Shown here piece by piece: positions 30,001-57,164 of a stretch of DNA of 64,000 bases; the first letter of the stretch is position 1, and every line of letters begins with the position of its first letter. Below the pieces are notes generated by a model. The model did not search any database. It was given only the letters and a program-made list of their open reading frames with translations, and was not told the origin of the DNA. The DNA lies in contig NZ_UGQM01000001.1 in assembly GCF_900454025.1 (NCBI RefSeq), positions 992,001 to 1,056,000 on the forward strand, read 5' to 3'. The position numbers and the translations under genes were made by a program. The stretch is from Mycolicibacterium gilvum (GTDB lineage Bacteria > Actinomycetota > Actinomycetes > Mycobacteriales > Mycobacteriaceae).

Positions 30001-33000
30001 CGCCGCCGATCAGGACATCGCGCCGCTGGCGGTGCCGCGCAGCCTGATCACCAACGCCGACCCAGCCCTTTTCGACGCCGTGGCGCAGGTTATGCGTACC
30101 TTGCCGGAGAAGTTCGACGACGCCCGCCCGAGCCCGGACCACCCGTGGGCCTTCATCGCCATGATCCCGCCCAGCGGTTTGGATCCCGCACGGATCCACT
30201 CCGCCGCAGTCGCATTCGACACCGCCCTCGCCGAGCTGCACGGTTTGGGCATCACCACCGAAGCCCTCAGTAGATGCCGCAGCCCAGAAACCGTCGACGG
30301 ATGGGCGCGGCTGACCGGGGAACCGCGCTACCCGTTGTCGGTGGTCGACGCCGTGCACACCGCCGATTGGCAGGCTTACGTCGCGGGGATCGAACATGCG
30401 CTGGCGGGCCTGCAGCAGAAGCCGGAGTGGCTGGCGAGCGTGACGCCGGCGGCCATGGACCTCGATATCCCGGCCATTCACGCGGCGGCCGTCGCGGCCG
30501 ATGAGTCGGGGATGTTCGGCCGCAAGAAGCGCCGCCGCGCGGTGCTGGCTCAGCTCACCGACGTGCTCGCCGTGGACCCTGCCGAGGTCAAACTTAAAAC
30601 GCTGTCCGCGTTGACCGCGGACTTGCAGGCCAGCCACGCCGTGGTCGCCGATCTGCGGCATCGGGTCGCCGCGCTGCCCGCAGTGCTGTTCGACCGGCCG
30701 TGGAACCCGTTCGTGGACGCCGACGCGGCGCACTTGGCGCAGGGGTTGGCGGCGCTGCGCCGCCTCGGCCACACACTGTCCGCCACCCCGGCTGACCCGC
30801 ACATCGCCGATCTGCGAAAGTTCTACAGCGACACCGCGACCGGAACGTGCACGTCCGCCCTGCAGGCGCTGTCGAAGAGTTGGCGTCAACTCACCGATAT
30901 CACCGGCAGCGCTGCGCTCCAAGGCGTCTGGGCCGGTGACGCATCGTTCATCGGGCGGTGGTGGGCGACCCGCGGCCCCCGCCGGTTGGAGTCGGCAGTG
31001 ACCATCGAGCGGTGGGTCACCCTGCTGCAGCACGTCGAGCCCCTGCTGCGTGCGGATATGCATGAGGCGCGCAGCAATATCCTCGCCGGCCGGATCGTGG
31101 CCGAGGACGCCAGCCTGTCGTTCGACCGCGGTGTCGCGGTCGCCTCCGTGGCCGAACGGCTGGACGCAAGCGGATTGAGTGACTTCGACGTCACTGCGCA
31201 CGGCAAGACCATCGATCGGTTCACCACCAGCGCATCGGCGATCCGCTACGAACTGTGCCGGTCGATCCCGGCCCGGCTGCTCGAGGGGCGGACCTTCGAC
31301 GCGTTCACTGAAAGCGGCCAGATCGGTCTGTTGAAACGACAGTTGGACAGAAAACGCGGCGGCATGAGCGTGCGTGCGTTGATGGAGAATTTCGGAGAGC
31401 TGATCACGCAAATCCTTCCGTGCACGCTGATGAGCCCGGATTCGGTGGCGCGGTTCTTCCCTGCGCACGCCGACATCTTCGACATCGTCGTGTTCGACGA
31501 GGCGTCCCAGATCCGGGTCGCCGATGCCATCGGCGCAATGGGGAGGGCCAAATCCGTTGTGGTGGTAGGCGACAGCAAGCAGATGCCGCCGACTAGCTTC
31601 GCCGAGACCAGCGCGGCCGTGGATGACGGTGAGGAGGACGCCAACCCCGAAGTGGTGGCCGACGAAGAATCGATCCTCAGCGAGTGCGTGCAGTCGTTGG
31701 TGCCCCAGCAATGGTTGTCATGGCACTACCGCAGCCAGGACGAGGCGTTGATCGCGTTCAGCAACATCCACTACTACAACGGCCGGCTGGCGTCCTTCCC
31801 GGCGCCGCTGACACCCGCGTCCGGGCATGGAATCTCGCTGATCCGGGTTGACGGGCAGTTCGAACGGTCCGGGCGTGGTAAGACATTGCGCACCAACCGG
31901 GTCGAGGCCGAGCGCATTGTCACCGATATCCGCAGCCGTTTCGATGCGTCACCCGAGGTTGCGCCGTCCATCGGGGTGATCACCTTCAATGCGCAACAGC
32001 GTGACTACATAGAGAACCTATTGCGCGATGCCGGTGATGACCGGCTGCTGCAGGCCCTCGACGAGTCGGATGGTCTATTTGTCAAGAACCTAGAGAACGT
32101 GCAGGGCGATGAGCGTGACACCATCCTGTTCTCGGTGGCGTTCAGCAAGAACGACAAGGGCGTGGTGCCATTGAACTTCGGTCCGCTGTCCAGGCCGGGT
32201 GGGGAGCGGCGCCTCAACGTCGCGATCACCCGCGCCCGTCGTGAAGTGGTGCTGTACGCCAGCTTCGAACCCGCGGATCTGCGCGCCGAGGAGACCACGC
32301 AGGTCGGCACTAAGCATCTGCGCGCCTATCTTGACCTGGCGCACCGCGGTGTGGACACCATCACCCAGGGTGGTCGACGCAATGCGGTGATCGACCGGCA
32401 TCGTGACGACATAGCTCACGCTTTGCGGAGTGAAGGATTGGTCGTAAGGTCAGACGTCGGGCTTTCCGACTTCCGCGTGGACCTGGTGATCGCCGATCCC
32501 GATGAAGCCGAGCGGCCATTAGTGGCAGTCTTACTGGACGGTCCCGAGTGGTTCGCACGCCGGACCGTCGCCGACCGGGACGGCCTACCGGTCGAGGTGC
32601 TCTCGAAGCTGCTGCATTGGCCCGGGGTGGAACGGGTGTGGCTGCCGGAATGGTTGGGGGATCGCGACGCGACGGTGACCCGGCTGCGCGATGCGGTGGC
32701 CGCGGCCAAACAGCGCACGCTGAAACCACCGGCCGAGCAGGTCGTGACGCCGCCACCAACGGTGATGACACCCATGGAACAGGAGCCTTTTGCATTCCGG
32801 TCGGTGCAGCTGAAGCCGAAGCCGGCTGCGCCGCGGCGGCATGCCGATCTCACCGACTTCGCCCCGTGGAATCCGGTGGTGATCGGCAGCATCAGCGTGC
32901 TCGATGAGATCCACACCAGGAACAACCGGGCGCATGTGGTGAAGATCGTCGAGTCGATCATCGACGCCGAGGGGCCGGTGCATCGGGATCGGCTGGCCAA

Positions 33001-33406
33001 GCTGGTGGCCGGGGCATTCAGCCTCGGCAAGGTCAGTGAGGCGCGGCGGACGGCGATACAGCACGTGGTTCCAACTGAATACGTCCGTGGCGACGACCGC
33101 GACTTCTACTGGCCCATGGGTGTGGAACCTGCTTCTTGGCGGACCGTGCGTACCGCGAAGCGCGGGGAGAGCCGCCCGCTGGGCGAGATCAGCCTGGTCG
33201 AGATCGGCAATGCGATGCGCGTGGTGGCCGAACAGGCCGGCGGCAGTGCGGTCGACGACCTCAAACGTGATGCCTTGGCCCTGTTTGGTGGCATCCGCAT
33301 CACCAAGGACATCGGTGCGCGTCTTGATGAGGCATTGGAACGGGCCTTGGCCGCCGGCACTCTCAAGCGTCTGCCCTCGGGGATCATTGTGGTCGGATTC
33401 GTATGA
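27068..33406 (+). CDS. HEPN/Swt1-transglutaminase-DUF4011-SF1 helicase-REase-DUF3320 protein, 2112 aa
   Basis: This is a giant multidomain protein. Residues 1-130 form a Swt1-like HEPN domain with the RNase motif RNKWAH (R99 to H104). A transglutaminase-like region follows near 390 (GTCLDTTLTLAAVL, then LLRGHAFLGYW). DUF4011 lies at about 550-665 (LLDLSLRNKLINY). The SF1 helicase has Walker A GPPGTGKSQT near 856, VVFDEASQ near 1475, LSWHYRS, and RLNVAITRARREV near 1713. A Vsr/MTES_1575-like endonuclease fold follows near 1795-1890 (SDFRVDLVI, then VLLDGPEW). DUF3320 ends the protein (about 1930-2112). Related DUF4011 helicase-nucleases recur in defence islands. The likely role is single-protein antiviral defence with helicase-driven DNA cleavage and a possible RNase arm; that role is inferred. 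The start is GTG 27068 with a weak ribosome site. Confidence 0.88.
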   Translation: MNNVDRHQLIGQTLTALAGGLSPFVTQVLNRVIPPGTDWADLLRAKDTANGRGGGEYQSRDVALMLRAMTERLGDLGYPFNRAMPRQAEIYAKELREVRNKWAHTGEFTDAETYRAIDSAELLLRAVGAADVAERVHNLKTAVAPMAAPPALQPATPAPPQSGPATVPARKPVPPADAPRIDISAIADLSYAMAHCRIPVIDHITVDNTGGDRQGAVLEIDVVSAEGSHGGPAEIHLDLLAHQPTTLQTVDLKLDPASMWRVDEARPGDIRVVLRDSAGAVLAEAAKEVTILAANQWKATPPQLALEILAAYIQPNAAAIAPLLVEVSDRLGAATGNSSIDGYQSENPERVDAIARAVFDAVKARDIRYAEPPASWGDIGQKVRTPAEVFDGRLGTCLDTTLTLAAVLEQCGINSTIWLLRGHAFLGYWRIDGALATVSTTEPAEVVNQVDLKSIGLIETTLVTQSVPDATFDDARRAPRIQHLAEDLTNILGITDVRQARRSLIFPLPSRSTDADGNVVISEYKPGDGPMFQPYEATESKPAAAAEAVPARVRQWKNALLDLSLRNKLINYTDRAGYRLEVPGPALGRFEDAVNAGARVNLLGSDEVQNVDVARGMRFGRDLPEPERELLLADKHSAYIDITAASYKNKLRYLANKAKTIREETGANNLYLAFGMLSWHLNDRPLRSPLVLVPVSLTTTNRGERYLVTIDDTGASTPNYCLIEKLRIAFGLEIPGLAQPDEDASGIDLVATFDAVRRAVAEAKLPFLVEDSVHLSILQFAKFPLWKDLDESWKALSGNSLVRHLLETPQNPYVDPAAEVPHTDLNDLSTAVPVPADASQLRAVADAVGGRTFVLEGPPGTGKSQTITNLLAHAMASGRRVLFVAEKRAALDVVKKRLESVGLGELSLDIHDKSARPAAVRAQIKHALELRMSHDADLLRTKLQVVESSRHSLARYADRLHEANAVGQSLYTARSFELAADQDIAPLAVPRSLITNADPALFDAVAQVMRTLPEKFDDARPSPDHPWAFIAMIPPSGLDPARIHSAAVAFDTALAELHGLGITTEALSRCRSPETVDGWARLTGEPRYPLSVVDAVHTADWQAYVAGIEHALAGLQQKPEWLASVTPAAMDLDIPAIHAAAVAADESGMFGRKKRRRAVLAQLTDVLAVDPAEVKLKTLSALTADLQASHAVVADLRHRVAALPAVLFDRPWNPFVDADAAHLAQGLAALRRLGHTLSATPADPHIADLRKFYSDTATGTCTSALQALSKSWRQLTDITGSAALQGVWAGDASFIGRWWATRGPRRLESAVTIERWVTLLQHVEPLLRADMHEARSNILAGRIVAEDASLSFDRGVAVASVAERLDASGLSDFDVTAHGKTIDRFTTSASAIRYELCRSIPARLLEGRTFDAFTESGQIGLLKRQLDRKRGGMSVRALMENFGELITQILPCTLMSPDSVARFFPAHADIFDIVVFDEASQIRVADAIGAMGRAKSVVVVGDSKQMPPTSFAETSAAVDDGEEDANPEVVADEESILSECVQSLVPQQWLSWHYRSQDEALIAFSNIHYYNGRLASFPAPLTPASGHGISLIRVDGQFERSGRGKTLRTNRVEAERIVTDIRSRFDASPEVAPSIGVITFNAQQRDYIENLLRDAGDDRLLQALDESDGLFVKNLENVQGDERDTILFSVAFSKNDKGVVPLNFGPLSRPGGERRLNVAITRARREVVLYASFEPADLRAEETTQVGTKHLRAYLDLAHRGVDTITQGGRRNAVIDRHRDDIAHALRSEGLVVRSDVGLSDFRVDLVIADPDEAERPLVAVLLDGPEWFARRTVADRDGLPVEVLSKLLHWPGVERVWLPEWLGDRDATVTRLRDAVAAAKQRTLKPPAEQVVTPPPTVMTPMEQEPFAFRSVQLKPKPAAPRRHADLTDFAPWNPVVIGSISVLDEIHTRNNRAHVVKIVESIIDAEGPVHRDRLAKLVAGAFSLGKVSEARRTAIQHVVPTEYVRGDDRDFYWPMGVEPASWRTVRTAKRGESRPLGEISLVEIGNAMRVVAEQAGGSAVDDLKRDALALFGGIRITKDIGARLDEALERALAAGTLKRLPSGIIVVGFV

Positions 33407-34641: not shown

Positions 34642-35286
34642 TCAGTCGTCGGTTAGGGCGGACCGCTGATCCTCGGTGAACGCCGGCATAGCCGCGGCTC
34701 CATCAGTTATCTTCGCGGTCCGATACCCGCGCACATTGCCCGACATAGCCGCCATCGCCTCCCGGGACTTCCCCCTGCTGTACGTGACGGCCTGCTCGGC
34801 CTTGACCCCCAGGTCTTTACCGACCTCGACGGCATCCTGATCGGCACCCATATAGAGGAACTCCCAACCGAATTCGTTGGTCTGCTGTTCGACGAGAGAC
34901 TTGATGGCCGGTCGACTCCATTCGTGGCTGGCGTTCTCCAGGCCGTCGGTCATGATCGCGATGATGACCGACCCCGGCCTGTCGTCCTCGGCGAGTGCGG
35001 CAATCTCGGCAGCGGTGTCGGTGATGAGCTTGCCCATCGAATCCAGCAGCGCGGTGCTGTTGCGCGGATTCAGCACCAGCGGTGGCACCTCGCTGACGGG
35101 CACCGCACGGTAAACCACCTCGTAGTGGTCGTCGAACTGCGCAAGCGTGACCCGACAGTCACCGTCGCCGGCACGCTGTTCGGCGAGAAACGCGTCGAAA
35201 CCACCGACCACGTCGGACTTGATGGACTGCATCGACCCGGACCGGTCGAGCAGGAAGGCGATGAGGGTGAGGTTCTGGTTCGACAT
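34642..35286 (-). CDS. von Willebrand factor A domain protein
   Basis: The protein is 214 residues, essentially one vWA domain. The MIDAS metal site is complete: LLDRSGSM (D14, S16, S18), a Thr in NSTALLDSM near 95, and an Asp in IMTDGLEN near 113. There is no signal peptide or membrane segment, so it acts in the cytoplasm, probably in protein-protein contact through a divalent metal. ATG 35286 follows AAGGAA. It lies 23 bases downstream of the HTH-like gene and is most likely its operon partner. Confidence 0.88.
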   Translation of the reverse strand: MSNQNLTLIAFLLDRSGSMQSIKSDVVGGFDAFLAEQRAGDGDCRVTLAQFDDHYEVVYRAVPVSEVPPLVLNPRNSTALLDSMGKLITDTAAEIAALAEDDRPGSVIIAIMTDGLENASHEWSRPAIKSLVEQQTNEFGWEFLYMGADQDAVEVGKDLGVKAEQAVTYSRGKSREAMAAMSGNVRGYRTAKITDGAAAMPAFTEDQRSALTDD

Positions 35287-35309: not shown

Positions 35310-35690
35310 CTAGCGAGGGTTGGCTTTTCGGCGTGGCTTGAACCGCATCGGCTCTGCTGGCACAGCGGGTGGCAGAGGGTTGCGGGCGTGCTTGTCGTTG
35401 CGAGCGCGTTTGACGTCTTCGGCGGTGATCCGAGCGCCGTTGCTGGCGTACGGGTTGAGTCGGGGCGTGCTGGCGAGGCGTGGGCCGACCGCGTTCTCGG
35501 TGAGGCCGGCGCTCTTTCCGGCCGCCGCGATCGACATCTCGTCGTCGACGACCGCGCGGGCCAGTTGTTCATCGAGTAGGAGACTGACCTCCGTCAACAC
35601 TGACCGAAGGTGTCGGAGGGCTTGGTCTGCGGATGGAGCACTCTCTGCATGGGCGAGATCTGCGCGGATGCGGTCGTACCGGTTGGGCAT
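35310..35690 (-). CDS. Small HTH-like putative regulator
   Basis: ATG 35690 gives 126 residues. An N-terminal helical part (MPNRYDRIRADLAHAE, then LRHLRSVLTEVSLLLDEQL) is followed by MSIAAAGKSAGLTENAVGPRL (about 54-74), a plausible helix-turn-helix. The C-terminus is basic (MRFKPRRKANPR). Two perfect tandem palindromes lie 12-44 bases upstream of the start, which fits an autoregulator. It sits between the EEP gene and the vWA gene on the same strand. The DNA-binding role is inferred from the HTH pattern and the operator. Confidence 0.7.
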   Translation of the reverse strand: MPNRYDRIRADLAHAESAPSADQALRHLRSVLTEVSLLLDEQLARAVVDDEMSIAAAGKSAGLTENAVGPRLASTPRLNPYASNGARITAEDVKRARNDKHARNPLPPAVPAEPMRFKPRRKANPR

Positions 35691-35752: not shown

Positions 35753-36454
35753 TCAGCCATCCACGACTGCCACGAGACCGGAGTGATCGGTCTCCTCTGA
35801 TGTCCGTGGCGCATGATCGAACTCGCAGAAGCTGATCTGCCGCGCGAAATCCGGCCCCGCGAAGACATAGTCGAGCCGGAACCCGTTGTCGCCGGGCCGA
35901 CTGAACCACGAGTACTCACGGACGTCGGGATGCAGCGACCGCCACACATCCGTGTAGCCAGAGGCGATCAGCCTCCCCGGCATCTCCGGGCCGATGAACT
36001 TCGCTCCTCGCGGAGCCTTGTCGAGATCGTTGTTGCCGGTGTTGAAATCGCCGATCAACAGATCGATGCCAGAACGATTGGCATCGTTGATCAGAGCCTC
36101 CCAATAGGGGAGTTTCGCGGTGTTCTGCGGCATGTACACCCCGCACACGTAGGCGCCGTCGATCTCGGTACACCACAGATGCCGCCGGTCCAGCGACTCG
36201 GTGAACGCCCACGATCGGTCGATGCCGCCGCGCGCCGCGATGAGCACCGTATTCTCCTTCACCCCGACCTCGGGATGTGAGGTGTCATAGCCGACCTGGG
36301 TGAGGCGGTCGATGAGTCGCTCACCGACAGCATTGGCGCGGAACTCGGTGACCACCAGGATGTCGGCGTCGTACCTGAGCAGTCGGCCGGCCAGCGCCTC
36401 CGCGGACTTCGTGCCGCCGTGCCGAATGTTGAGAGTCGCGATCCGTGTCCCCAT
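35753..36454 (-). CDS. Endonuclease/exonuclease/phosphatase (EEP) family protein
   Basis: The protein has 233 residues from ATG 36454, behind AAAGGGC. It carries the full EEP signature: TLNIRHGG near residue 10 (metal Asn), VVTEFRA near 37 (Glu), LLIGDFNTG near 135 (Asp and Asn) and ETDHSGLVAVV near 225 (Asp-His pair). Family members cut DNA or RNA, or hydrolyse phosphodiesters in lipids. There is no signal peptide, so a cytoplasmic nuclease is more likely than a sphingomyelinase. Its end is 62 bases from the HTH gene. The real substrate is unknown. Confidence 0.88.
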   Translation of the reverse strand: MGTRIATLNIRHGGTKSAEALAGRLLRYDADILVVTEFRANAVGERLIDRLTQVGYDTSHPEVGVKENTVLIAARGGIDRSWAFTESLDRRHLWCTEIDGAYVCGVYMPQNTAKLPYWEALINDANRSGIDLLIGDFNTGNNDLDKAPRGAKFIGPEMPGRLIASGYTDVWRSLHPDVREYSWFSRPGDNGFRLDYVFAGPDFARQISFCEFDHAPRTSEETDHSGLVAVVDG

Positions 36455-36577: not shown

Positions 36578-39472
36578 CTAGCCCCGCTCCACCCGGTACT
36601 TGCCCCCGACATTGGCAGCCACCTGCTTCTCGGTGCGTCTGCGGTCCATCTCGCCTGGCGCGGCCGCTGACCAGAACGTGATCTCGTCATTACCCGTGGT
36701 GAAATCCCAGCCCTGACCCGGTAATGCCGCCACGGGATCCAGTCCTCGCGCGGTCAATTCGTCGCGCACCTGCTCGCGCGCGGTGCGCCACGCGCTCGCG
36801 GTCGCTGGGCTTGCCGTTCCACGCACATACGCGACAGCGGCGATCTCGTGGTCCAGGTCGTCGCTGAACGCGGCAACCGCCGCCTCGGCCGCGGCGACTT
36901 CGCGCGGCTCGGGCGTCGCCCCCATCTCCAGGTCGGTGTATAGGCCCGGGCTCACCTGTTGCCGGTCACCCCCGACGGTCACGGCGTAGGTGGTGACTGT
37001 CGACGGATTCCCCTCGGCGGTGGCGACGACGGTCACCAACACATAATCATGGCTGGACCGATTGTCGGACAGCACAATTCCATGATTGAGCGACGAGCCG
37101 AATTCCTCGCCGGCGGCGTCGGCGAGCGCAGACACCAGAGGGTGCCCGGGTGCCATCAATTCCGGTGGGTCTGCCGCGAAGACCTGATCGTCAGAGTGCG
37201 CGAACGCCACCCTGTCGTAGCGGGCCATCAGCGACGACCCGAACTCGTCTCGCAGCCGTGTGGGCACATACCCGACCTGCCACGCATCACCCCGCATCGT
37301 GATGTCCACATGAAAGAGCGGCGCGGCCCGCAACATGAAGTCGCGGGTCACATCCGGCTGAAAACTCATTGCCTTCGCGATCTCCATGTCGCGACGCAGC
37401 ACAGCGAGTTCCTCCGGCGTCAGCGTGCTCACCGATGCCGCCCGCTTCTCGACGGCCGATTCGAGGCGTCCCGACACCGACTCGAGCTGGGATTCGATCT
37501 CGTCGCGCTGCGCCTCTCCGCCCACCGCTCGCCGTAGCAATTGACTGAGGCTGATCTCGGTCAGCACCTCGCCGAGCACGTCGAACACCTGGTCACCGAG
37601 CGCCTCCCGCTGCACCTCGACCTTCTCGAGAAGGGTCTGAAAGACATCACCCTCTCGGGTGTCGGCGGCGACGAGATTCCACAGATGACAGGTGTGTCGT
37701 TGACCGATTCGATGGATCCGGCCGAACCGCTGTTCGAGCCGATTTGGGTTCCACGGCACGTCGTAGTTGACCATCAGGTGTGCGACCTGAAGGTTGACGC
37801 CCTCACCCGCAGCGTCTGTCGCAATGAGGACCGAGCTGCTCGGTTGCGTGATGAAGTTCGCCTGCGCGCGCCGGCGATCGGTCCACGACAGCGCACCGTG
37901 AATCACTTGAACGTCGACGGTCCTACCAAGGAGCTCAACGAGACGGTCCTCAAGGTAGTCGAGGGTGTCCCGATTCTCCGAGAAGATGATGATCTTGCGC
38001 CGCTGCCCGTCCGCCTCGAACATCGCTTCACTCGTGAGCAGCTCGGCGAGCGCAGCCCACTTCGCGTCGGCACGGGCCGAATAGACGGCCTCGGCCTTCG
38101 CGACGAGCCGATCGAGCACCAGGATCTCCGCCTCGAGCTCCGCGACTGTTCGCGCGTTCGTGGCGACGCTGACCACCTCGTCCTGGTACGTCTCCGCCCG
38201 CACGCTGCTCATCTCATCGGGATCGTCGTTGCCCACCCCGAGTGTCGCCGCGAGAGCCACGGCGATCTTCCCCTCGGCTGCCTGCGCCTGGTCCGCTTGC
38301 GCGCGCAGCCGGTCGCGCCGACGGGTGAGCGACCGCAGAATCGCCTGCGGAGAGGACGCCAGTCGGCGCTGGAGAACGACGAGCGCGAAACCCACACTGC
38401 GCCTGGTGTCGTCATCGGAGACCTTGTTCATCTCCTCACGCACGTACTCGCTGACCGCCTCGTAGAGCTCGCTCTCGACCGGGCTGAGTCGGTAGGGCAC
38501 GGTGCTCGCGCGGCGCTCGGGAAACAGGGGTGTCCCGTCCAAGTGGACGAGTTGCTCTTTGACCAGGCGACGCATCAGTCCGTCGCCGGCAGGATCCTCG
38601 ACGACGGGCTTATCCGCGGACCCCAGGAGCGTGAGGAATTCCCGATAATCGGCGTCCTTGCCGTTATGCGGAGTCGCCGTCATCAACAACGTGCTCGGGA
38701 CCGCGTCGCGAATAGCCTCGGCGAGCTTGAAGCGCTTTGTCTTGGTGACCGTGCTGCCCCAGGAGCTGACGGAGAGTTTGTGCGCCTCGTCAAAGATGGC
38801 CAGGTCGTAGTCTCCATCGACGGCCTTAGCCGTCAGTTCGCTACTGCGGCTGAACTGGTCGAGCCGAGCGATGAGAAACGGGAAGTCCTGCAGTGACTCG
38901 TGCGGCGAATCACCCAGCAACGAATTCTCGAAGATCTCGAAGTGGAGTGCGAATTTTTCTCTCAGCTCGTTCTGCCATTGCTCAACGAGACTTCCGGGCA
39001 CCACGATGAGACACCGCCGGATCCAGCCCCGCGCGAGCGCCTCTTTGATGAACAGGCCCGCCATGATGGTCTTTCCCGCGCCGGGGTCGTCGGCGAGCAG
39101 GAATCGTTTCGGGTGTCCGGTGAGCATGCAGTCGTAGACAGCCTGCACCTGATGCGGCAGAGCTTCGACATTGGACGACGACACCGCGAGCAGCGGGTTG
39201 AGCACGGCCGCGTGCCGCAACCGCAGGGCTTCGATCGCGAGCCAGAACTGGTCGGGATCGGCGGCGAGGGTAGGGCCTCGACCGCCCACCGGCAGAACCT
39301 TCCTCAACTCGTCCGCAGAGAGAAGCCGCGAGTCCTCGATGCCGAACTCATCCCGATAGCGGACGAAGGCCCCGGAGCCGGCGGCGGTGATGTCGACGAT
39401 CTCGACGACCGCATCGAATGCCAATCCCTCGACTTTGCTTCCCGGCGACAGGTGAGCGAAGCCAGGCAGCAC
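36578..39472 (-). CDS. SNF2-family DNA translocase/helicase, 964 aa
   Basis: GTG 39472 with GGAG seven bases upstream is the start. Motifs in order are PHQVQAVYDCML (Q region, near 104), DDPGAGKTIMAG (Walker A, about 128), FDEAHKL (DEAH, about 227), LLMTATPHNGK, LIATDAAGEGVNLQ and QRFGRIHRIGQ (motif VI, about 585). The last 350 residues are a family-specific extension with a conserved-looking acidic end. It resembles stand-alone SNF2/HepA-like helicases such as DrmD of DISARM. There is no DISARM methyltransferase or DrmB beside it. It is divergent from the phosphoesterase-like/ATPase pair, with only 62 bases between, suggesting co-regulation. Confidence 0.9.
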   Translation of the reverse strand: MLPGFAHLSPGSKVEGLAFDAVVEIVDITAAGSGAFVRYRDEFGIEDSRLLSADELRKVLPVGGRGPTLAADPDQFWLAIEALRLRHAAVLNPLLAVSSSNVEALPHQVQAVYDCMLTGHPKRFLLADDPGAGKTIMAGLFIKEALARGWIRRCLIVVPGSLVEQWQNELREKFALHFEIFENSLLGDSPHESLQDFPFLIARLDQFSRSSELTAKAVDGDYDLAIFDEAHKLSVSSWGSTVTKTKRFKLAEAIRDAVPSTLLMTATPHNGKDADYREFLTLLGSADKPVVEDPAGDGLMRRLVKEQLVHLDGTPLFPERRASTVPYRLSPVESELYEAVSEYVREEMNKVSDDDTRRSVGFALVVLQRRLASSPQAILRSLTRRRDRLRAQADQAQAAEGKIAVALAATLGVGNDDPDEMSSVRAETYQDEVVSVATNARTVAELEAEILVLDRLVAKAEAVYSARADAKWAALAELLTSEAMFEADGQRRKIIIFSENRDTLDYLEDRLVELLGRTVDVQVIHGALSWTDRRRAQANFITQPSSSVLIATDAAGEGVNLQVAHLMVNYDVPWNPNRLEQRFGRIHRIGQRHTCHLWNLVAADTREGDVFQTLLEKVEVQREALGDQVFDVLGEVLTEISLSQLLRRAVGGEAQRDEIESQLESVSGRLESAVEKRAASVSTLTPEELAVLRRDMEIAKAMSFQPDVTRDFMLRAAPLFHVDITMRGDAWQVGYVPTRLRDEFGSSLMARYDRVAFAHSDDQVFAADPPELMAPGHPLVSALADAAGEEFGSSLNHGIVLSDNRSSHDYVLVTVVATAEGNPSTVTTYAVTVGGDRQQVSPGLYTDLEMGATPEPREVAAAEAAVAAFSDDLDHEIAAVAYVRGTASPATASAWRTAREQVRDELTARGLDPVAALPGQGWDFTTGNDEITFWSAAAPGEMDRRRTEKQVAANVGGKYRVERG

Positions 39473-39534
39473 CTCGTCTCCAATCTTCCGGGATCAGCTA
39501 CCCGCATGATAGACAGCAACGGGGAGGATTCGGC
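39473..39534. promoter_or_regulatory. Shared divergent promoter region of the SNF2 and phosphoesterase-like/ATPase genes
   Basis: The 62 bases between two divergent starts must hold both promoters unless they lie within the genes. The rightward gene has a strong GGGGAGG ribosome site at 39521-39527 before GTG 39535. I saw no clear palindrome. Confidence 0.5.
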
Positions 39535-40470
39535 GTGGACATCATGGTTGCCAGTGGGGTGCAACTCGACCATGCGTGGGTCGGTCTCGGTGCTGAATTC
39601 GGAGCGGCGTTACGCGATTGGTCGCGTCAAGTGCTGGCGCTCGTTGTCGAGGAGGCCAACCGCCGGGGTGCTGGAACGTTGCTGATCGCGGGCGGTCTCT
39701 TTGACCGGACGTCCGTGTTACCTGCCACCGTCGATTACGCGTCCCAGATACTCGGCACGTTCGGCGGCGACGTTGTCGTCGTTCCCGGCAAGCCCGACTG
39801 GATCGACGGCACCAGCCTGTACAACACTCACCGCTGGGCTCCCAATACCTCGATCTGTTCGTCCTCCGAATACCAACCCTGCGCGACCGCGCCGTCGGTA
39901 TGGGTGAGCGCGTGGACCTCGCCGGGTGGCGCCGTCCCACGTCTTCCCGACGTGCCGGAACCGCACGTGCTCATCCGCGCCGGCGCGGGTGGCGACGGCA
40001 GAATCCTCGCCGTCCCGAACCTCGTCCGTGATCCACGTGAACCGGGAGGGTTCGCCGTGCTGATCGACGGCACCTCGCCCGAAGAGCCTGCCCGGCGGGT
40101 CGATCTACCAAGCCAACCCGGATCGTTGGCAGACCTCGACGTCACAGACGCCGCGCACTCCGACGCGCTCGCGGCCGCCGTGGAGGCCGTCCTCACGCCG
40201 GGACATCCACTGCTTCTGCGACTGGTCGGCACGCTCGCACCCGGGGTACTGCTCCCGGGATTCAGCGGACCGGACCGAAACCTTCCGTCCGACGTCGTGC
40301 TCGACGTCGATTCTCTGAGCTTCGCCACACCGTCGGTGGACCCGGCCGACCGCAGCGCCCGAGCCGAATTCCTCCGAGCGATGGCGCACGCCAACGCCTC
40401 TGACTTGCAACGGCATCAGACCACCGCCCTCGGTCTGGCCGCACTCGACGCCTCAGTCCAGGGGGCGTGA
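39535..40470 (+). CDS. Degenerate SbcD/YhaO-like calcineurin-fold protein, probably catalytically dead
   Basis: GTG 39535, seven bases after GGGGAGG, gives 311 residues. The layout follows SbcD/YhaO phosphoesterases, but the metal ligands are lost. IMVASGVQLDHAWVG aligns with the family's HxADxHLD motif but has G8 and Q10 in place of Asp and His. LLIAGGLFDR replaces AGDLFDR, and VVPGKPDW replaces PGNHD. The fold is therefore recognisable while the di-metal site is not. It ends three bases before the YhaN-like ATPase, the same pairing as SbcD with SbcC or YhaO with YhaN. It probably acts as a structural subunit of the ATPase. Homology by motif position is good but not proven. Confidence 0.72.
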   Translation: MDIMVASGVQLDHAWVGLGAEFGAALRDWSRQVLALVVEEANRRGAGTLLIAGGLFDRTSVLPATVDYASQILGTFGGDVVVVPGKPDWIDGTSLYNTHRWAPNTSICSSSEYQPCATAPSVWVSAWTSPGGAVPRLPDVPEPHVLIRAGAGGDGRILAVPNLVRDPREPGGFAVLIDGTSPEEPARRVDLPSQPGSLADLDVTDAAHSDALAAAVEAVLTPGHPLLLRLVGTLAPGVLLPGFSGPDRNLPSDVVLDVDSLSFATPSVDPADRSARAEFLRAMAHANASDLQRHQTTALGLAALDASVQGA

Positions 40471-40473
40471 CAC

Positions 40474-43227
40474 ATGCGCATCGACCGCGTCATCGGCACC
40501 GCGTTTGGTCCACTCCGCGGCGAAACACTGCAGTTCGCACCCGGTCTCAATGTCGTACACGGACCCAACGAAGCGGGAAAGTCCAGTTGGTTCAACGCCA
40601 CGTACACGGCTCTCGCCGGACGGCGGAAGTACAAGGGCAGAGGCAGTGCCGCCGAGACGGAGTTCAGGAACCGACACAAGCCCTGGTCGGGCTCCAAATG
40701 GGCTGCCGGCGTTGCCGTCACGCTCGACGACGATCGCGCACTGGCTATTACCCAGGATCTTGCGAAGGGAGAATGGACGATCGTCGACGGCTCGACTGCC
40801 CAGGCGATATCCGATGCTGAATTGCTCACGGACGCAAGCCTGGACGGCACCCGCCTACTGGGCCTCAACCGCCACTCAGCGCGATCGACCATCTTCACCG
40901 GCCAAGCCGACATCCTCCGAGTGCGCGACGACGCCGGCGAACTTCAGGAGCTCCTGGAGAGGGCCGCCTCGACCGGGGCGACCGATGCGACTGCCGACGC
41001 GGCGCTGGCCTGGCTCAAGGAGCGACGTGCCGAATGGGTGGGAGTGGCGCACGGAAAGAAGCCGCTCGCGACCACCCGAGCTGCTCTGAACGCGTCGCGA
41101 GCGCTGGCGCAGACACGACGAGACGACCTCGCTGAGCTCCTCGAGACCATTGCCAACCGTCAGAAGCTTGTCGCACCCCTCGTGAAAGCCCGCGCGAAAG
41201 TCGAACTGTCCGAACGCTTCGTGAAGTGGCAGAGCGTGTACGAGTTGCGGGGCCGTGTCGAGAAGGCTGCAGAGCTGTCGACCAGAGTGGCTCAACTACG
41301 CGAAGCCGACCTGACTGTTGACGAGGAGAAAGCCGCGGCCGCCACCGAGGCTCTGGTGGTGTTTGACCGCGGGACCGATGTAGCGCCACTGGGTGACGGA
41401 CCGACAGCGGCCGAGCTGCAAATCCAGATCGACGAGCTGCCCCAGGTGCCGGAGGGTGATCGCGAGCCACGTCAAGACGTCGTCGACGCCCACAGCGACC
41501 TGCTCAAGGCTCAAACTGCACTCGACACCCACATGCAGGCCACGCCGCCCGACGTCGAGCCACCTCCACCGACCACACTCTTCTCGGACGAGTTGCGCAC
41601 TCTCGCTGATGTTCTGGCGTCGCCGCCGCCTGTGGTGGACGCGGCTGCGGTAGCGGCGTTTCAGCAGGACAGGGAACAGCGGACGGCGCAGTTGGCAGCA
41701 CTGCAGCGCAACGTCGACGAGTACGATGCCGCGTACCGGCAGGCGAAGGTCGATTACGACGCCGCCGTCGAAAACGGTGGACTGGCTCTCGAGTTGGCCG
41801 CGCTCCACGCCATTGAGCGATCGGCCGCTGAAGACGTTTTGGCCGCCCGTCGCAGACAAGTCGACCTTCTGACGGGAGCACTGTCGGCGCAGGAAGTTCA
41901 GGCGGGCGTGATGGCGCAAGAGGTTGCGCTACGCCAACATCAGGAACGCGTCGGTGCCGCCCAAGCCCAGGTACGTGAGGAATCGCTCGACGCCGACCCG
42001 GAGGCCCTGAAAAAGATCGCCCGCGAGATTGATGCCGCCGGCGCAGCGCGGATCGCGGCAGCCAAGCATGCGGATCGAGCCGCGGAGTTCCGGGCCGCAC
42101 GAGACGACCGCGTCCGAGCACTTGCGCGCCTACTCGGGGGACAGGATCCTCTCACCACGGAAGATCCTCTTGCGCAGACACTTCAGAGGTTCACCGACTA
42201 CGTCGAGGCCTGCAAGTCTCGCGCGGAGGTCGCCAACCAAGCCGCTCGTCACGCCGACCTCGTCGAGGCGCATAGCCAGCGGCTACAGCTCGAAGCGAGC
42301 CACCTCCAGGCGCTCTCCGTGCGTGAAGCGCAAGGACGCGAGGTGATCCAGCGTGCCGCTGGCCTTGGCGTAACCGCCGATACTCTGGAGACCGCGATCG
42401 AACAGCTACGCCGGTGGGTGAGTGAGCAAGACGCAAAGCGCGCGGCGCTGACCAAGTGGAAGACCGACGTCGCCCTACTCGAACAACTACTGAGTGGTCG
42501 CGAACTGGCTGACCTGCAAGCGGATCTCGCGACGTTGACTGCGGGCGCCGGTGAGGAGCCGGAGGAGCCGATGCCGCCGGATCTGAACACGTTCGTCACG
42601 GAGGCAAAAGCGCTCTACGACAGGATGATCGACCTCGACGGTCAGCTCAAGGGAAAGATTCAGGCCCTCGGCAACGCCCTCGGGTCGGTGGCGGAGGCCG
42701 TGGAGGAGGAGGCCGACGCACAGCGGGCAGTCGATCAGGTCGAGACGTTGGCGTCGTGTCTGGACGCGGCCACCGCCGAACTCACCAACGCCAAGGAACG
42801 CGCCAACGCTTCCATTGCACCCGCTCTCGCTGATCGGATGCGGCCTTGGCTACCCAGGGTGACCAACGGCCGGTACCGTGACGTCACCGTCGATCCGGGC
42901 GATCTGACGATCCACGTGACAGAGACGACCGGCCAAGTACGCCAAGCAGATCGGCTCTCACTCGGTACGACCGAACAGATCTACCTCCTACTTCGGGTAA
43001 CCCTCTCGGAAGTACTCTCCGGTGGCGCCGAGACCGCGCCGCTGATCTTCGACGATGTCACCACCCAGTCGGACACCACTCGCACGCTCGCGGTGATGGA
43101 ACTGCTGCATGAGCTCAGCGCAGAGCATCAGGTCATCCTCTTCTCTCAGGAGGACGAAGTCGTCGAGTGGGCGCAGCGAAACATCGATCCCACGAGGGAC
43201 AGGATTATTCCGCTGCCGGCGCCCTGA
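40474..43227 (+). CDS. YhaN/SbcC-like AAA-type coiled-coil ATPase
   Basis: The 917-residue SMC-like protein has an N-terminal Walker A motif GPNEAGKSSWFN (about 31-42), as in the AAA_27/YhaN group. A long charged coiled-coil region follows (about 170-770). The C-terminal signature is LSLGTTEQIYLLLRV near 827, and Walker B is APLIFDDVTTQSD near 852. Such ATPases, with an SbcD-type partner, form DNA-end or clamp complexes. It starts three bases after the degenerate phosphoesterase-like gene. With the divergent SNF2 helicase it may form a DNA-sensing complex; the function is inferred from families, not shown. Confidence 0.88.
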   Translation: MRIDRVIGTAFGPLRGETLQFAPGLNVVHGPNEAGKSSWFNATYTALAGRRKYKGRGSAAETEFRNRHKPWSGSKWAAGVAVTLDDDRALAITQDLAKGEWTIVDGSTAQAISDAELLTDASLDGTRLLGLNRHSARSTIFTGQADILRVRDDAGELQELLERAASTGATDATADAALAWLKERRAEWVGVAHGKKPLATTRAALNASRALAQTRRDDLAELLETIANRQKLVAPLVKARAKVELSERFVKWQSVYELRGRVEKAAELSTRVAQLREADLTVDEEKAAAATEALVVFDRGTDVAPLGDGPTAAELQIQIDELPQVPEGDREPRQDVVDAHSDLLKAQTALDTHMQATPPDVEPPPPTTLFSDELRTLADVLASPPPVVDAAAVAAFQQDREQRTAQLAALQRNVDEYDAAYRQAKVDYDAAVENGGLALELAALHAIERSAAEDVLAARRRQVDLLTGALSAQEVQAGVMAQEVALRQHQERVGAAQAQVREESLDADPEALKKIAREIDAAGAARIAAAKHADRAAEFRAARDDRVRALARLLGGQDPLTTEDPLAQTLQRFTDYVEACKSRAEVANQAARHADLVEAHSQRLQLEASHLQALSVREAQGREVIQRAAGLGVTADTLETAIEQLRRWVSEQDAKRAALTKWKTDVALLEQLLSGRELADLQADLATLTAGAGEEPEEPMPPDLNTFVTEAKALYDRMIDLDGQLKGKIQALGNALGSVAEAVEEEADAQRAVDQVETLASCLDAATAELTNAKERANASIAPALADRMRPWLPRVTNGRYRDVTVDPGDLTIHVTETTGQVRQADRLSLGTTEQIYLLLRVTLSEVLSGGAETAPLIFDDVTTQSDTTRTLAVMELLHELSAEHQVILFSQEDEVVEWAQRNIDPTRDRIIPLPAP

Positions 43228-44718: not shown

Positions 44719-44958
44719 ATGGAGGCTGTGATCGATTCCGGTGGTCGAGTGGTATTACCGAAGCAACTGCGGGACGCCTTAGGTTTGACCCCCGGCATGA
44801 AAGTGGACATTTCTGCCTACGGCGTTGGGCTGCAGATCGTTCCGGGCGGGCGAACCGCTCGACTGGAACGCGACGACGATGGTCGTCTCGTGGCGCAAGC
44901 CGACACCGTCGTCACCGACGAAATGATGTTCGCCATCATCGACTCCGGTCGGCGCTGA
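44719..44958 (+). CDS. vapB: VapB antitoxin, AbrB/MazE-like (copy 1)
   Basis: The 79-residue protein has the swapped-hairpin AbrB fold, VIDSGGRVVLPKQLRDALGL, at its N-terminus. The C-terminal tail TDEMMFAIIDSGRR is the probable toxin-binding arm. It is nearly identical to the antitoxin at 58175. It lies six bases before its toxin. It should bind its own promoter and neutralise VapC. Confidence 0.93.
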   Translation: MEAVIDSGGRVVLPKQLRDALGLTPGMKVDISAYGVGLQIVPGGRTARLERDDDGRLVAQADTVVTDEMMFAIIDSGRR

Positions 44959-44964
44959 TAAACG

Positions 44965-45375
44965 ATGCCTGTCACAGCGGTTGATACGAGTGTCGCTGTA
45001 CCGCTGCTCGTCGGCTCCCACCGGGAACACGCCGCCGTGGCGAGATGGGCAAAAGGCAAGACGCTGGGACTGAGCGGGCATGCGCTGACCGAGACGTACT
45101 CGGTGCTGACACGGCTACCCGGTGATGCGCGACTGCTCCCGCGGGATGCGGTCGCACTGATCGACGCCAACTTCACCGCATCCCTCACACTCGGCGCCCG
45201 CGTCGCACGTAGTGCGCATCGCGAGTTGGCTCGACGAGGAATCGGCGGCGGTGCGACTTACGACGGACTCGTTGCGCTGGCGGCGCGAGAACACGGGGTG
45301 GCGCTGGCAACTCGTGATGCCCGCGCCAGGGCGACTTACGAAGCCCTGGGTGTGGACACCGAAGTCGTTGCATGA
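44965..45375 (+). CDS. vapC: VapC toxin, PIN-domain ribonuclease (copy 1)
   Basis: The 136-residue PIN domain has the acidic site AVDTSVAVPLL (D7), HALTETYSVLTRLPGDAR (Glu near 42), YDGLVALAAREHG (Asp near 95) and ATRDARAR (Asp near 114). The catalytic set is complete, so the RNase should be active. It is cotranscribed with the antitoxin and converges on the SEC-C gene 21 bases away. It is a close paralogue of 58411-58845. Confidence 0.93.
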   Translation: MPVTAVDTSVAVPLLVGSHREHAAVARWAKGKTLGLSGHALTETYSVLTRLPGDARLLPRDAVALIDANFTASLTLGARVARSAHRELARRGIGGGATYDGLVALAAREHGVALATRDARARATYEALGVDTEVVA

Positions 45376-48135: not shown

Positions 48136-48960
48136 ATGAGCAAGAAGAGCGCCGACGGCTCGAGCGCCATCGGCGCTCTCATTTTCTTCGCGGTCGTCCT
48201 GATCGCGATGGTCCCGAAACCGGTGTGGATCACCCTGGGCGTCATCGTCGGCGCCATCATCGTGACCTGGGTTGTATATCGCATCGTCGGGGCCGTGGAA
48301 GCGGGTCGTGCCGCCGAAGAGGAACGGCAACGGGTCGAGCGGGCACAGCGGGCTGCTGCCGAGAAACGCGAGCGCGACGAACGTCTACGCAGAGAGAAGC
48401 AACGGCGCATCGACACTCTCGGTAAGCAGAACGCTGCCCGGGTCGAATCCGCGCTGACAGCCATAAGGCAGGTCACGTCCTCCGAAGCAGCCCGCGCGGG
48501 ATGGTTGGGCGACATCGACTTCGGCGCCGACCTCAAGAGCATCTCGGAGAACTTCGCGAAGGCGCACGCGCTGCAAGGTGTGACGAGCAAGCTCTCGGCT
48601 CTGGACAAGCCGAATGCCGACGACAAGAGAATCCTCGCCGAGGCCAAGGCGACGATCACCTCCCTCGAACGGACGGCGATCGAGCGGGTGACACTGATCG
48701 AAAGGTGCGCCACCGAAGCGAAACTCATCGACAAGTCACTCCAGGCGGAACGCGACGATGCCCGCGTCGCCGAACAGCGCGCCGAGTTGCACGGCGAGTT
48801 AAGTGCGATGCTGTACGGCATCGAGGCGGCACCGACCGCCACTCCGAGCGAATCGGCCGCCGACGCGATCATGGCCCGCGTACAGGCTTACCGCGAGATC
48901 AAGAACCAGATTCAACTGGCGCGGGACAACGGCCCTGACGGTGGGGTTACGCGCGCATGA
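48136..48960 (+). CDS. Membrane-anchored coiled-coil protein (paralogue 1)
   Basis: The 274-residue protein has two adjoining hydrophobic segments at about 12-50 (ALIFFAVVLIAMVPKPVWITLGVIVGAIIVTWVVYRIV). A long charged coiled-coil follows (about 52-100, RAAEEERQRVERAQRAAAEKR), then a conserved soluble domain (IDTLGKQNAARVESAL to MLYGIEAA). It should sit in the membrane with the helical domain in the cytoplasm. It is strongly similar along its whole length to 56361-57164. The function is unknown. Confidence 0.85.
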   Translation: MSKKSADGSSAIGALIFFAVVLIAMVPKPVWITLGVIVGAIIVTWVVYRIVGAVEAGRAAEEERQRVERAQRAAAEKRERDERLRREKQRRIDTLGKQNAARVESALTAIRQVTSSEAARAGWLGDIDFGADLKSISENFAKAHALQGVTSKLSALDKPNADDKRILAEAKATITSLERTAIERVTLIERCATEAKLIDKSLQAERDDARVAEQRAELHGELSAMLYGIEAAPTATPSESAADAIMARVQAYREIKNQIQLARDNGPDGGVTRA

Positions 48961-48979: not shown

Positions 48980-50740
48980 CTACGGCCGCGATGGCCTCAG
49001 ATGACGCTCACTCTCCGCGCGACCTCCGTGCCGTTCGATGAGAACGTCAAACGGTGTCCGCCCCTTCGCATCTCGTAACGACCTCACCGCGCCGCGCCGA
49101 ATCAACTCCGAGACGATGCCGGCAGGTGCGCCGTGCCACGCCGCCTGGTGCAGCGCGGTGAACCGCGCCGAGCCATCCGGACGCACCCCGTTGACGTCGA
49201 CCTGCGTTCGCGGGTCGTCGAGCATCGCGAACACGGTCGCCCAGTCACCGACCTTCGCCGCGTCCGCGAACCGGTGCTGGGCCGCCTCTGCAAACGCAGA
49301 AGGCGGGCTGGGATGCAAGCGCTGCAACGCCTTTCGGAAAGCGGGGTTGGGGTGCGCGCCCGGCAGTGCTTTCTGGATGTCGGCCAGCGCCCGATCGACA
49401 CCGACACCCCGAAGCCGTGCTCCGTACAGCGCGCCCACCGTGGGTGTGCGGCTGTACGCGCCGACGCAATGCACCAGCACGGTGCGTCCCTCGCGGCGTA
49501 GGCGCTCCACAGCGCGCACCGCATCGAGCAGGACGAAGTCGAGGTGCGGGTTCTCGTCGTCGGCGACCCGGTCGATCAGACGCACTTCGACGTGCGGCAT
49601 AACCGCGGGGACGTCGTCGTCGGCCAGTCGGCACAGCGACATCACCGCGTCGACATCCGCCGGGAGTCGGCGCAGCACCCCGATACCGCCGAGCATCACA
49701 CCGTCGTCGTACGGATGACGCGCGACCGCGTCGACCGAGGAACCGGGATAGGTGAAGTCGAACTGGTCCGGTTCACCACCACGGTGGATCGCCGACGCCA
49801 CGCCAACGAGGTTGCGCGCCGTGACCCCTGGCCATCCGTGCAGCAATTCTCGCCACTGCACGGGCACCGCGGATGCCCCGTACGCCGCGCCGAGCAGTCC
49901 TCCCGCGATCGCGGCGACGGTGTCGGTGTCGTGGCCCGCCCGCACCGCGGCGTCGAGCGACAGCCGGAGATGATCAGCGTGAAACACCCCCGACGCCGGG
50001 TCGTCGACGGGCACGGGCGTGGTGCTGATCGCCGACCACGCCGCCTGCAGCGCGGCCACCACCCAGCCGTTGTGCGCGAACGACGACGGGCGTCCTGCCT
50101 CGGCCGCATCCAGCCGCTCCTGCCACACCTTGCGGCGGCTCCAGTCGATGTGGCGCAACCCGATTCGGACGTCGATCTGCGCGGTGAGCACTGCGTGCCG
50201 GATTGCGCAGCACCACAGCACGCACGCATCGCCGGCGTCGGGATCGAAATGGGTGAGCTCGCTCAAAGCCCGTGCCGCCTCGACCATCGCGTCCTCGTCG
50301 TCGAGGTAGGCGAGCGCCACCGGCGCGGTCCGCATCAGCGAACCGTTGCCCGCTGTGCGACCGGTGCGCGCGTGCAGTCTGGCTGCTGCTTCACGGGCGC
50401 GCGCTGCTGTGACGACACCCTCCTGCGCGGCGGCGGTGAGCACCGAGCGGGTCTGAACACCCACGTCCTTCGCCCGCCGCGACCATTCGTGCCAGCGCGC
50501 GACGACCGCGTCCTGGGCATCCTGCGTACGCAGGTCGGCACCGGTCGCGGCCACCTCGGCGACGGCGATCGCCATCGAGGTGTCGTCGGTCCACTCGCCG
50601 CGCTCCCAGATACCACCCCCGACCATCGCGACCTCGAGTTCGGGGCCACGCGGCGAGCCGAACTCGTACGGCGCGCCGAGCGCGTCACCGGCCGCGGTGG
50701 CCAGCAGGACACCCTCGATGCGGTCATGCAAAGACGTCAT
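48980..50740 (-). CDS. ADP-ribosylglycohydrolase-dual-specificity phosphatase-ankyrin fusion
   Basis: ATG 50740 follows GAGGGGG and gives 586 residues. The N-terminal DraG-type ADP-ribosylglycohydrolase has the dimagnesium residues in GDALGAPYEFG (18-28), WTDDTSMA (50-57) and GHDTDTVAAIAGG (near 270). A tyrosine/dual-specificity phosphatase follows, with the P-loop HCVGAYSRTPT near 420 (Cys-x5-Arg). Two or so ankyrin repeats end the protein (about 510-575, FTALHQAAWHGAP, then GRTPFDVLIERHG). Both catalytic sites look intact. It may remove ADP-ribose and phosphate from the same target or pathway. A perfect palindrome lies 20 bases before the start. Domain calls are firm; the substrate is unknown. 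Confidence 0.9.
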   Translation of the reverse strand: MTSLHDRIEGVLLATAAGDALGAPYEFGSPRGPELEVAMVGGGIWERGEWTDDTSMAIAVAEVAATGADLRTQDAQDAVVARWHEWSRRAKDVGVQTRSVLTAAAQEGVVTAARAREAAARLHARTGRTAGNGSLMRTAPVALAYLDDEDAMVEAARALSELTHFDPDAGDACVLWCCAIRHAVLTAQIDVRIGLRHIDWSRRKVWQERLDAAEAGRPSSFAHNGWVVAALQAAWSAISTTPVPVDDPASGVFHADHLRLSLDAAVRAGHDTDTVAAIAGGLLGAAYGASAVPVQWRELLHGWPGVTARNLVGVASAIHRGGEPDQFDFTYPGSSVDAVARHPYDDGVMLGGIGVLRRLPADVDAVMSLCRLADDDVPAVMPHVEVRLIDRVADDENPHLDFVLLDAVRAVERLRREGRTVLVHCVGAYSRTPTVGALYGARLRGVGVDRALADIQKALPGAHPNPAFRKALQRLHPSPPSAFAEAAQHRFADAAKVGDWATVFAMLDDPRTQVDVNGVRPDGSARFTALHQAAWHGAPAGIVSELIRRGAVRSLRDAKGRTPFDVLIERHGGRAESERHLRPSRP

Positions 50741-56360: not shown

Positions 56361-57164
56361 ATGAGCAAGAAAGGCTCGTCGGACGGCTCGAGCGTCGTCG
56401 GCGGCTTCATCTTCGTCGTGATCGTCCTCATCGCGATGGTCCCGAAGCCGGTCTGGATCACCCTGGGTATCGTCGCCGCGGCGGTGCTCGTGACCTGGAT
56501 CGTCTATCGCATCGTCGTGGCAGTGGAGGCACACCGCGCCGCCGAAGAAGAACGTGAACGCGTCGAACGCGCACAGCAGGCTGCCGCTCAGAAACGTGAG
56601 CGTGAAGAACGCGCGCGCAAGGCAAAGCAACGGCGCATCGACACCCTCGGCAAACAGAACGCAGCACGCGTGGAATCCACATTGAGCGCGGTCCAAAGGG
56701 TCAAGGCGTCCGAAGCAGCCCGCACGGGATGGCTCGGTGAGGTCGACTTCAGCGCCGACATCAAGAGCATCACGGAGAACTTCGAGAAAGCACACGCACT
56801 CCGGGCGGTGACGAGCAAGCTTTCGGCCCTGGACAAGCCCAACGCCGATGACAAGAAGATCTTGGACGAGGCGAAGACAGCGATAGCGGCCCTCGAAGGC
56901 GCCGCGATCGAGCGAGTAACACTGATCGAGAAGTGCGCCACCGAAGCGCAACTCATCGACAAAACGCTTCGGACGGAACGAGACGATGCGCGTATTGCCG
57001 CACAGCGCGCCGAGCTGCACGGAAAGTTGAGCGGAATGCTGTACGGCATCGAGGCGGCACCTCCCGCCGCTCCGAGCGATTCAGCGGCGGCCGCAGTAAT
57101 GGCGCGGGTGCAGGCATACCGGGAGATCAAGAGCCAGATCGAACGGGCCCGAGAGGACGGATGA
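56361..57164 (+). CDS. Membrane-anchored coiled-coil protein (paralogue 2)
   Basis: ATG 56361 gives 267 residues. Two hydrophobic segments (about 13-52, FIFVVIVLIAMVPKPVWITLGI) are followed by a Glu/Arg-rich coiled-coil and the same soluble domain as 48136-48960 (IDTLGKQNAARVES, KLSALDKPNADDKKIL, MLYGIEAAPPAAPSDSA). The N-terminal 12 residues and the linker differ most. It shares a promoter block with the paralogue. The function is unknown. Confidence 0.85.
   Translation: MSKKGSSDGSSVVGGFIFVVIVLIAMVPKPVWITLGIVAAAVLVTWIVYRIVVAVEAHRAAEEERERVERAQQAAAQKREREERARKAKQRRIDTLGKQNAARVESTLSAVQRVKASEAARTGWLGEVDFSADIKSITENFEKAHALRAVTSKLSALDKPNADDKKILDEAKTAIAALEGAAIERVTLIEKCATEAQLIDKTLRTERDDARIAAQRAELHGKLSGMLYGIEAAPPAAPSDSAAAAVMARVQAYREIKSQIERAREDG

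Follow-up and report, generated by a model that had tools for sequence, protein, structure and literature searches.

In the accessible passages of PMC12839542, the helicases of type 1 BREX-Related (BR) systems carry an active PD-(D/E)XK nuclease at their C terminus, and BR is equated there with Hma, a name also given in the available part of PMC8565338; for Lamassu, the accessible part of PMC10586767 presents a Rad50-like SMC ATPase as the presumed DNA sensor of a small defence operon and offers a precedent for the sensing of hairpins. Here we analyse a module of Mycolicibacterium gilvum that shares features with each of these systems. It lies at 36578–43227 of a 64,000-nt stretch of DNA (hereafter the window; NZ_UGQM01000001.1, positions 992,001–1,056,000, assembly GCF_900454025.1) with a G+C content of 65.8%, in a genome of 6.43 Mb. 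Its three genes, for an SNF2 helicase, an SbcD/YhaO-like protein and a YhaN-like ATPase (Table 1), very probably form one functional unit.

The SNF2 gene diverges from the phosphoesterase-like gene across 62 bp, a region kept in eight aligned loci, and only 3 bp (40471–40473) separate the latter from the ATPase gene. The longest open reading frame in the frame of the phosphoesterase-like gene begins at 39418, upstream of the GTG chosen here (39535). A preliminary description made from the sequence had reported the same spacings and had recognized an SNF2 helicase, a dead SbcD/YhaO-like protein and a YhaN-like ATPase; the open reading frame coordinates agree with the former, and the profiles, alignments, lost motifs and hhalign comparison given below with the latter.

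The middle protein gave no Pfam, NCBIfam or PADLOC family match; an alignment of its family (seven rows) matches a YhaO-type protein over residues 1–220 (hhalign, 97.4%). Aligned with the intact YhaO-type proteins of loci L030–L032, the window protein reads SGVQLD instead of SDLHLD in motif I, GGLFD instead of GDLYE in motif II and PGKPDW instead of PGNHDW in motif III, the roles of these motifs being those generally known for calcineurin-like phosphoesterases. The Asp of motif I and the Asn and His of motif III are gone in 10/10 members of the family (eight aligned rows, L036 and a piece from genome G588), while the segment in which intact relatives carry the later His motifs is missing from seven close rows and replaced without His in genome G391 (eight aligned rows). 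Judged by these residues, key metal or catalytic positions have been lost in all 10 members and the phosphoesterase is nuclease-dead. Pfam recognizes Metallophos in the intact relative L030 (57.5 bits), and found no match in the dead-family proteins of G391, G501 and the window. A C-terminal ALG-x-AALD helix is conserved among the dead-family members, and the ratio of non-synonymous to synonymous substitution rates (dN/dS, NG86) between the window protein and seven relatives was 0.15–0.27; it is therefore a maintained protein and not the product of a decaying gene. With a structural model built from seven sequences (best predicted local distance difference test score, pLDDT, 68.2; predicted template modelling score 0.61; residues 112–171 below 50), a Foldseek search of the PDB returned SbcD/Mre11 entries in 14/14 matches at E ≤ 0.001, but with template modelling scores of 0.35–0.43 and root mean square deviations of 9–21 Å. 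The middle protein is thus likely to have an SbcD/Mre11 fold, which the structure search supports rather than proves.

In the SNF2 protein the helicase motifs are intact (DDPGAGKT at residue 128, DEAH at 228, TATPHNG at 265, TDAAGEG at 552 and QRFGRIHRIGQ at 581), and Pfam Helicase_C and SNF2-rel_dom score above their cut-offs. HmaA is its closest profile (846 bits; residues 8–807 on profile positions 7–840 of 1176). RapA is its best relative of solved structure; unlike RapA, the protein falls under the equivalog cut-off (187 bits against 576) and is linked to an SMC-type couple. Nine aligned helicases of the HmaA branch, one of them a C-terminal piece from G391, finish in a G[FY]D..EVK region that Pfam identifies as NOV_C (PF13020) in the two sequences scanned. 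This C-terminal NOV_C/nuclease region is absent from the helicases of the window, L043 and L048 in the alignment, and from the window protein in the Pfam scan. By these comparisons the SNF2 protein of the window is a relative of HmaA, the helicase of BREX-related systems, that has no nuclease.

The third protein satisfies what is expected of a YhaN-like ABC ATPase: it matches AAA_27 (34.1 bits, cut-off 22) and AAA_23 (37.2 bits, cut-off 27) and keeps Walker A (GPNEAGKS), signature (LSLGTTEQ) and Walker B (LIFDD) motifs. It also matches Rad50 in the PDB (33.9 bits, phmmer). CxxC was not seen in the ATPases of 7/8 close members or of G391; L028 has one. In PADLOC it scores highest against mad3 of the MADS system (47.5 bits), and none of the papers listed in a literature search bears on this match. 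Between the window and its relatives, dN/dS (NG86) was 0.12–0.15 for SNF2 (four comparisons) and 0.17–0.23 for the ATPase (five comparisons); all three module genes compared are under purifying selection, and none of their products retains a recognizable nuclease. The ATPase partners of four intact YhaO proteins (L030–L032, L108) read NESAKS in Walker A, where the module has NEAGKS.

Like Hma and BR type 1, the module is sporadic and accessory and its SNF2 protein is by profile nearest HmaA; unlike them, its window helicase is without NOV_C and its partners are an SbcCD-like couple. HmaC was found in 0/8 module genomes at E ≤ 1e-20 (G391 lies outside this set; a control found HmaC in 1/14 named genomes), and within the window it matches nothing but ProA, in the N-terminal Swt1-HEPN part. 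HmaB gave no tblastn match (E ≤ 1e-5, three HmaB queries) in the window or in 16 module loci of nine other genomes, a search of these loci and not genome-wide. At HmaA outgroup loci, HmaB- and/or HmaC-like genes occur in 16/21 contexts, as expected of Hma. On the lack of HmaC in these genomes, of HmaB at the loci examined and of a nuclease domain in the helicase, membership in Hma was rejected. With YhaO/YhaN and SbcCD (Mre11–Rad50) the module shares the order of phosphoesterase then ATPase, the ATPase motifs and the likely phosphoesterase fold, but its phosphoesterase lacks the key catalytic residues, it forms a separate clade, it has an SNF2 partner in 10/10 loci and it occurs sporadically. 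It was not placed among the SbcCD/Mre11 nucleases, whose metal and catalytic motifs it does not show intact. The Rad50-like SMC-type ATPase recalls Lamassu as far as the accessible part of its description goes; in contrast to Lamassu, composed of LmuA, LmuB and LmuC, the module has an Mre11-like pseudo-enzyme and an SNF2 protein. The ATPase matched LmuB at 43.7 bits, its best stretch being residues 17–75, and neither LmuA nor LmuC was among the families listed for the trio (for SNF2, the best 25 of 51). Lamassu membership was rejected on this weak LmuB match and the absence of LmuA from the matches listed for the trio. No description of the trio was found in the literature titles and abstract openings listed or in the passages searched, with supplements and most subscription papers outside the search; the module is probably an undescribed system.

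All genome searches were made on samples and scored the best few candidates per genome. Among 248 genomes of the genus, the dead protein occurred in nine (eight close, and G391 at 32% identity), close SNF2 (at least 77%) and close ATPase (at least 66%) in eight each, and HmaA-type SNF2 (42–45%) in 22. The close SNF2, dead protein and close ATPase were found in identical sets of eight genomes, for which the chance is 1/C(248,8) = 3e-15 if genomes are independent, which they are not. The trio is contiguous in 7/8 of these genomes; in G588 a contig break inside the phosphoesterase gene divides it between two contigs. Root135 (L036) has a further intact trio and, together with G391, whose helicase gene is interrupted by a TAG, all three genes are present in 10/10 dead-family loci; their arrangement is the same in the nine unsplit loci and the pieces of the tenth are consistent with it. 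When 52 SNF2 loci were taken with 1.5-kb flanks, the dead-protein/ATPase couple adjoined seven close ones and that of G391, and gave no match in the flanks of the other 44/44. The named carriers are Mycolicibacterium/Mycobacterium species (seven loci). In G556, ATPase fragments with internal stops (112 residues, 68% identical; L111/L114, contig C8) are apparently what is left of a decayed module copy. A role in housekeeping repair was rejected on the presence of the module in 8–9/248 genus genomes.

In wider searches, the dead protein gave eight matches beyond its own against 61 relatives (E 1e-5 to 1e-3), among them the intact YhaO type of G018. Five matches were obtained in 394 genomes of the class at 1e-6, namely three of the dead family, all of the same genus and one of them the window, and two intact YhaO proteins (G089, G258). 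Of 15 matches in 397 genomes of the order, three belong to the dead family, again all in this genus; the other 12 align only within residues 3–153 of the dead protein and show no SNF2 match in a short flanking stretch. Of these 12, L121 and L123 have phosphoesterase motifs intact by pattern, and L124 and L125 read ADWQ, GDVFD and GNHD. Intact YhaO/YhaN pairs likewise had no SNF2 match in the stretches examined. Among plasmids, the phosphoesterase gave one weak match (Vescimonas), with neither an ATPase nor an SNF2 gene among the neighbours annotated there, and the ATPase none; SNF2 matched 95 records, all below 60% identity, and in the two inspected, genes for a DUF1156 methylase and a Swt1-HEPN protein lie close by. 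Viral contigs gave no match to the phosphoesterase or SNF2 as single queries and two weak partial matches to query A1. Short YhaO-like proteins at L118–L120 and L122, which also belong to the 12 order-level matches, read ADLHLD, GDLYE and, in motif III, GNDD rather than GNHD; they adjoin YhaN-like ATPases, with no SNF2 match, and are perhaps another partly degenerate YhaO-like branch.

When 54 helicases were placed in a tree, eight module helicases formed one long-branched clade (100/100), whereas that of the G391 module fell inside the HmaA part, beside the helicase of another family (100/100). In contrast, the ATPase and phosphoesterase trees, in both of which long branches were flagged, join the G391 pair to the module pair, separate from intact YhaO/YhaN (100/100 each). 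Because the G391 couple groups with the module but its helicase with HmaA, the dead-protein/ATPase couple seems to have gained an SNF2 partner twice or to have exchanged it. In the G391 SNF2 gene (L029, 5864–9295, minus strand), the in-frame TAG parts the helicase from a C-terminal NOV_C nuclease-like part. The same genome has a separate Hma-like locus (L148), where an HmaC-like gene is accompanied by an HmaB-like one that is in pieces.

Upstream of the module, the window carries the type 2 BREX genes PglW, PglX, BrxC/PglY, PglZ, BrxD and BrxHI (5855–23294), presumably a full type 2 set, with a GmrSD-like gene downstream of them (4047–5834). The anti-phage protein ProA follows at 27068–33406 (NF058533 equivalog, 1786 bits, cut-off 1500); its N-terminus is a Swt1-like HEPN domain resembling the N terminus of HmaC-type proteins. 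Relatives of known defence genes adjoin 5/6 other loci scanned (L024–L029), and seven of 10 flank proteins chosen from these loci match PADLOC families: ZacB, ZacC and a type IV restriction enzyme at L026, a type IV restriction enzyme at L027, PsyrT, partial at a contig end, at L025, LeoBC/LeoA at L029 and NERD-UvrD at L028. A sporadic distribution and a defence-gene neighbourhood are both present. The preliminary description had placed the genes in a defence island, could match them to no named system and suggested that an SMC-type sensor plus a translocase may be an uncharacterized defence system; chance-level co-occurrence or a housekeeping locus in all relatives would have spoken against it, and neither was observed. 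The identical genome sets, the 8–9 carriers, the BREX and ProA genes with the defence relatives at other loci, and the rejection of Hma and Lamassu bear this picture out; we infer that the module is probably a defence system.

Table 1. Features of the module and its border, in window coordinates.
Feature	Position	Strand	Details
SNF2 (Swi2/Snf2, RapA/HmaA-like) ATP-dependent DNA translocase	36578–39472	-	964 aa, GTG start
Shared divergent intergenic region, putative regulatory	39473–39534	.	62 bp; core CGCATGATA[GA]ACAGCA in aligned loci
SbcD/Mre11/YhaO-like pseudo-phosphoesterase	39535–40470	+	311 aa from GTG
YhaN/Rad50-like ABC ATPase	40474–43227	+	917 aa
Exo_endo_phos family protein, possible optional accessory nuclease, outside core	35753–36454	-	233 aa

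A relative of the Exo_endo_phos gene lies at most about 4.3 kb from the module in 4/9 close loci, those of the window, G501 (90%), G546 (27%) and G493 (30%). In G554 no more than 29 residues of it are left, at a distance from the module and next to a small gene that adjoins the window copy as well; because of this shared neighbour, the Exo_endo_phos gene may belong to the island, travelling with other island genes, rather than to the module.

The best explanation overall, which we regard as evenly balanced between right and wrong, is a horizontally moving anti-phage or anti-plasmid module in which a dead clamp directs an SNF2 translocase and which has no nuclease of its own. The specific mechanism, an Mre11–Rad50-like sensing clamp plus an SNF2 translocase, is offered tentatively. 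The ATPase and the dead SbcD/YhaO-like protein would assemble as an Mre11–Rad50-like head complex, which would bind unusual invader DNA such as ends, hairpins or replication intermediates, with the dead subunit acting as scaffold and DNA gate and having no nuclease role. ATP-driven closure would then recruit or license the SNF2 translocase to travel along the invader DNA and strip or block the replication or transcription machinery, and the invader would be halted without cutting or passed to a host or neighbouring nuclease. In its fullest form, a conjecture about which we are more doubtful than confident, this would be a nuclease-free immune complex that recognizes invader DNA through its clamp and blocks it mechanically through its motor, the clamp having been kept while the motor was swapped at least once, and the motor of the main branch lacking the nuclease domain that its relatives carry.

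Several observations count against this explanation. Of the 10 dead-family members, six retain the motif II Asp and four the motif I His, and because these residues survive, the dead phosphoesterase may have residual metal binding. Its structure was predicted with medium confidence (pLDDT 44.8–68.2 across five models), and the predicted SNF2 model, with a pLDDT of 41, was unusable for a fold search. ‘Nuclease-free’ may be incomplete, given the Exo_endo_phos gene beside the module in some loci. Three of the 10 chosen flank proteins, the only ones scored, had no PADLOC match (two from L024, one from L028). The approximately unbiased test that rejected a grouping of the G391 helicase with the module helicases (p-AU 1.7e-5) was applied to a group picked after inspection of the tree and involves long branches. 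Finally, the trio was found in one genus only in the searches made, and for that reason an accessory role other than defence is possible.

The same data can be read in other ways. A variant of Hma, or of a DUF499-centred BR system, in which the SbcCD-like couple has replaced the methylase and the DUF499 ATPase and a helicase effector brings about restriction-like killing, would account for the proximity of the SNF2 protein to HmaA and for the G391 couple being paired with an HmaA-branch helicase whose C-terminal piece has NOV_C. The outcome of the HmaC and HmaB searches, the separate long-branched clade of the module helicases and the window helicase without NOV_C make this variant unlikely. 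Alternatively, the trio could activate a separate nuclease, the adjacent Exo_endo_phos protein or one of the host, in the sensor–effector style of Lamassu. This would suit a trio with no nuclease inside it and Exo_endo_phos relatives near four of nine close loci; however, the flanks of the other five, some of them short, hold no full-length relative, and two of the four relatives are only 27–30% identical, so that we consider such activation improbable. It partly coincides with the explanation that we prefer, in the second outcome of which the invader is passed to a nuclease, and the likelihoods of the readings therefore do not sum to one.

The closest relatives of known structure, SbcCD/Mre11, Rad50 and RapA, are those that would be expected of an accessory of DNA repair or recombination with no defence role, be it SbcCD/YhaNO-like end processing or RapA-like recycling of RNA polymerase. 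Such an accessory is quite unlikely, however, in view of the few genus genomes that carry the module, the adjoining relatives of defence genes, the lost catalytic residues and the intact YhaO/YhaN pairs that show no SNF2 match in the stretches examined. Nor do the opposite strands of SNF2 and the couple say much for two unconnected units, in which a lone SNF2 defence gene would merely border on a dead phosphoesterase/ATPase pair: the genome sets are identical, the arrangement recurs in all nine unsplit loci with a consistent tenth, and in G391 a second SNF2 lineage occupies the same position, all of which renders a chance neighbourhood highly improbable.

Should a dead clamp indeed direct an SNF2 translocase, two DNA motors and a pseudo-nuclease would make up a defence system without a recognizable nuclease or modification enzyme. 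With the module one could test directly whether SMC-type sensing and translocation together suffice for immunity, and it would suggest a use for nuclease-dead Mre11 relatives as well as a route by which a BREX-related helicase type acquires a new sensor. For the use of phages, too, resistance in mycobacteria matters.

Further features were seen around the module loci. The window begins with the C-terminal part of a DruE/MrfA-like helicase (77–2608; MZB domain), the best DruE1 match starting at profile position 965, and near the divergent module LeoBC- and LeoA-like parts are contained in a single predicted protein of 1265 aa (L029:115–3912). An ADP-ribosylglycohydrolase lies near four module loci (window 48980–50740, L025:3631–5130, L026:18169–19815 and L033:4627–6069), the window protein also having phosphatase-like and ankyrin parts, and the small window genes at 34642–35286 and 35310–35690 recur near several module loci. 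The window also contains two-gene cassettes of VapBC appearance, for which no family search was made, duplicated at 44719–45375 and 58175–58845 (85% and 72% identical), and a duplicated protein at 48136–48960 and 56361–57164 (75% identical); the copies lie ∼8–13 kb apart.

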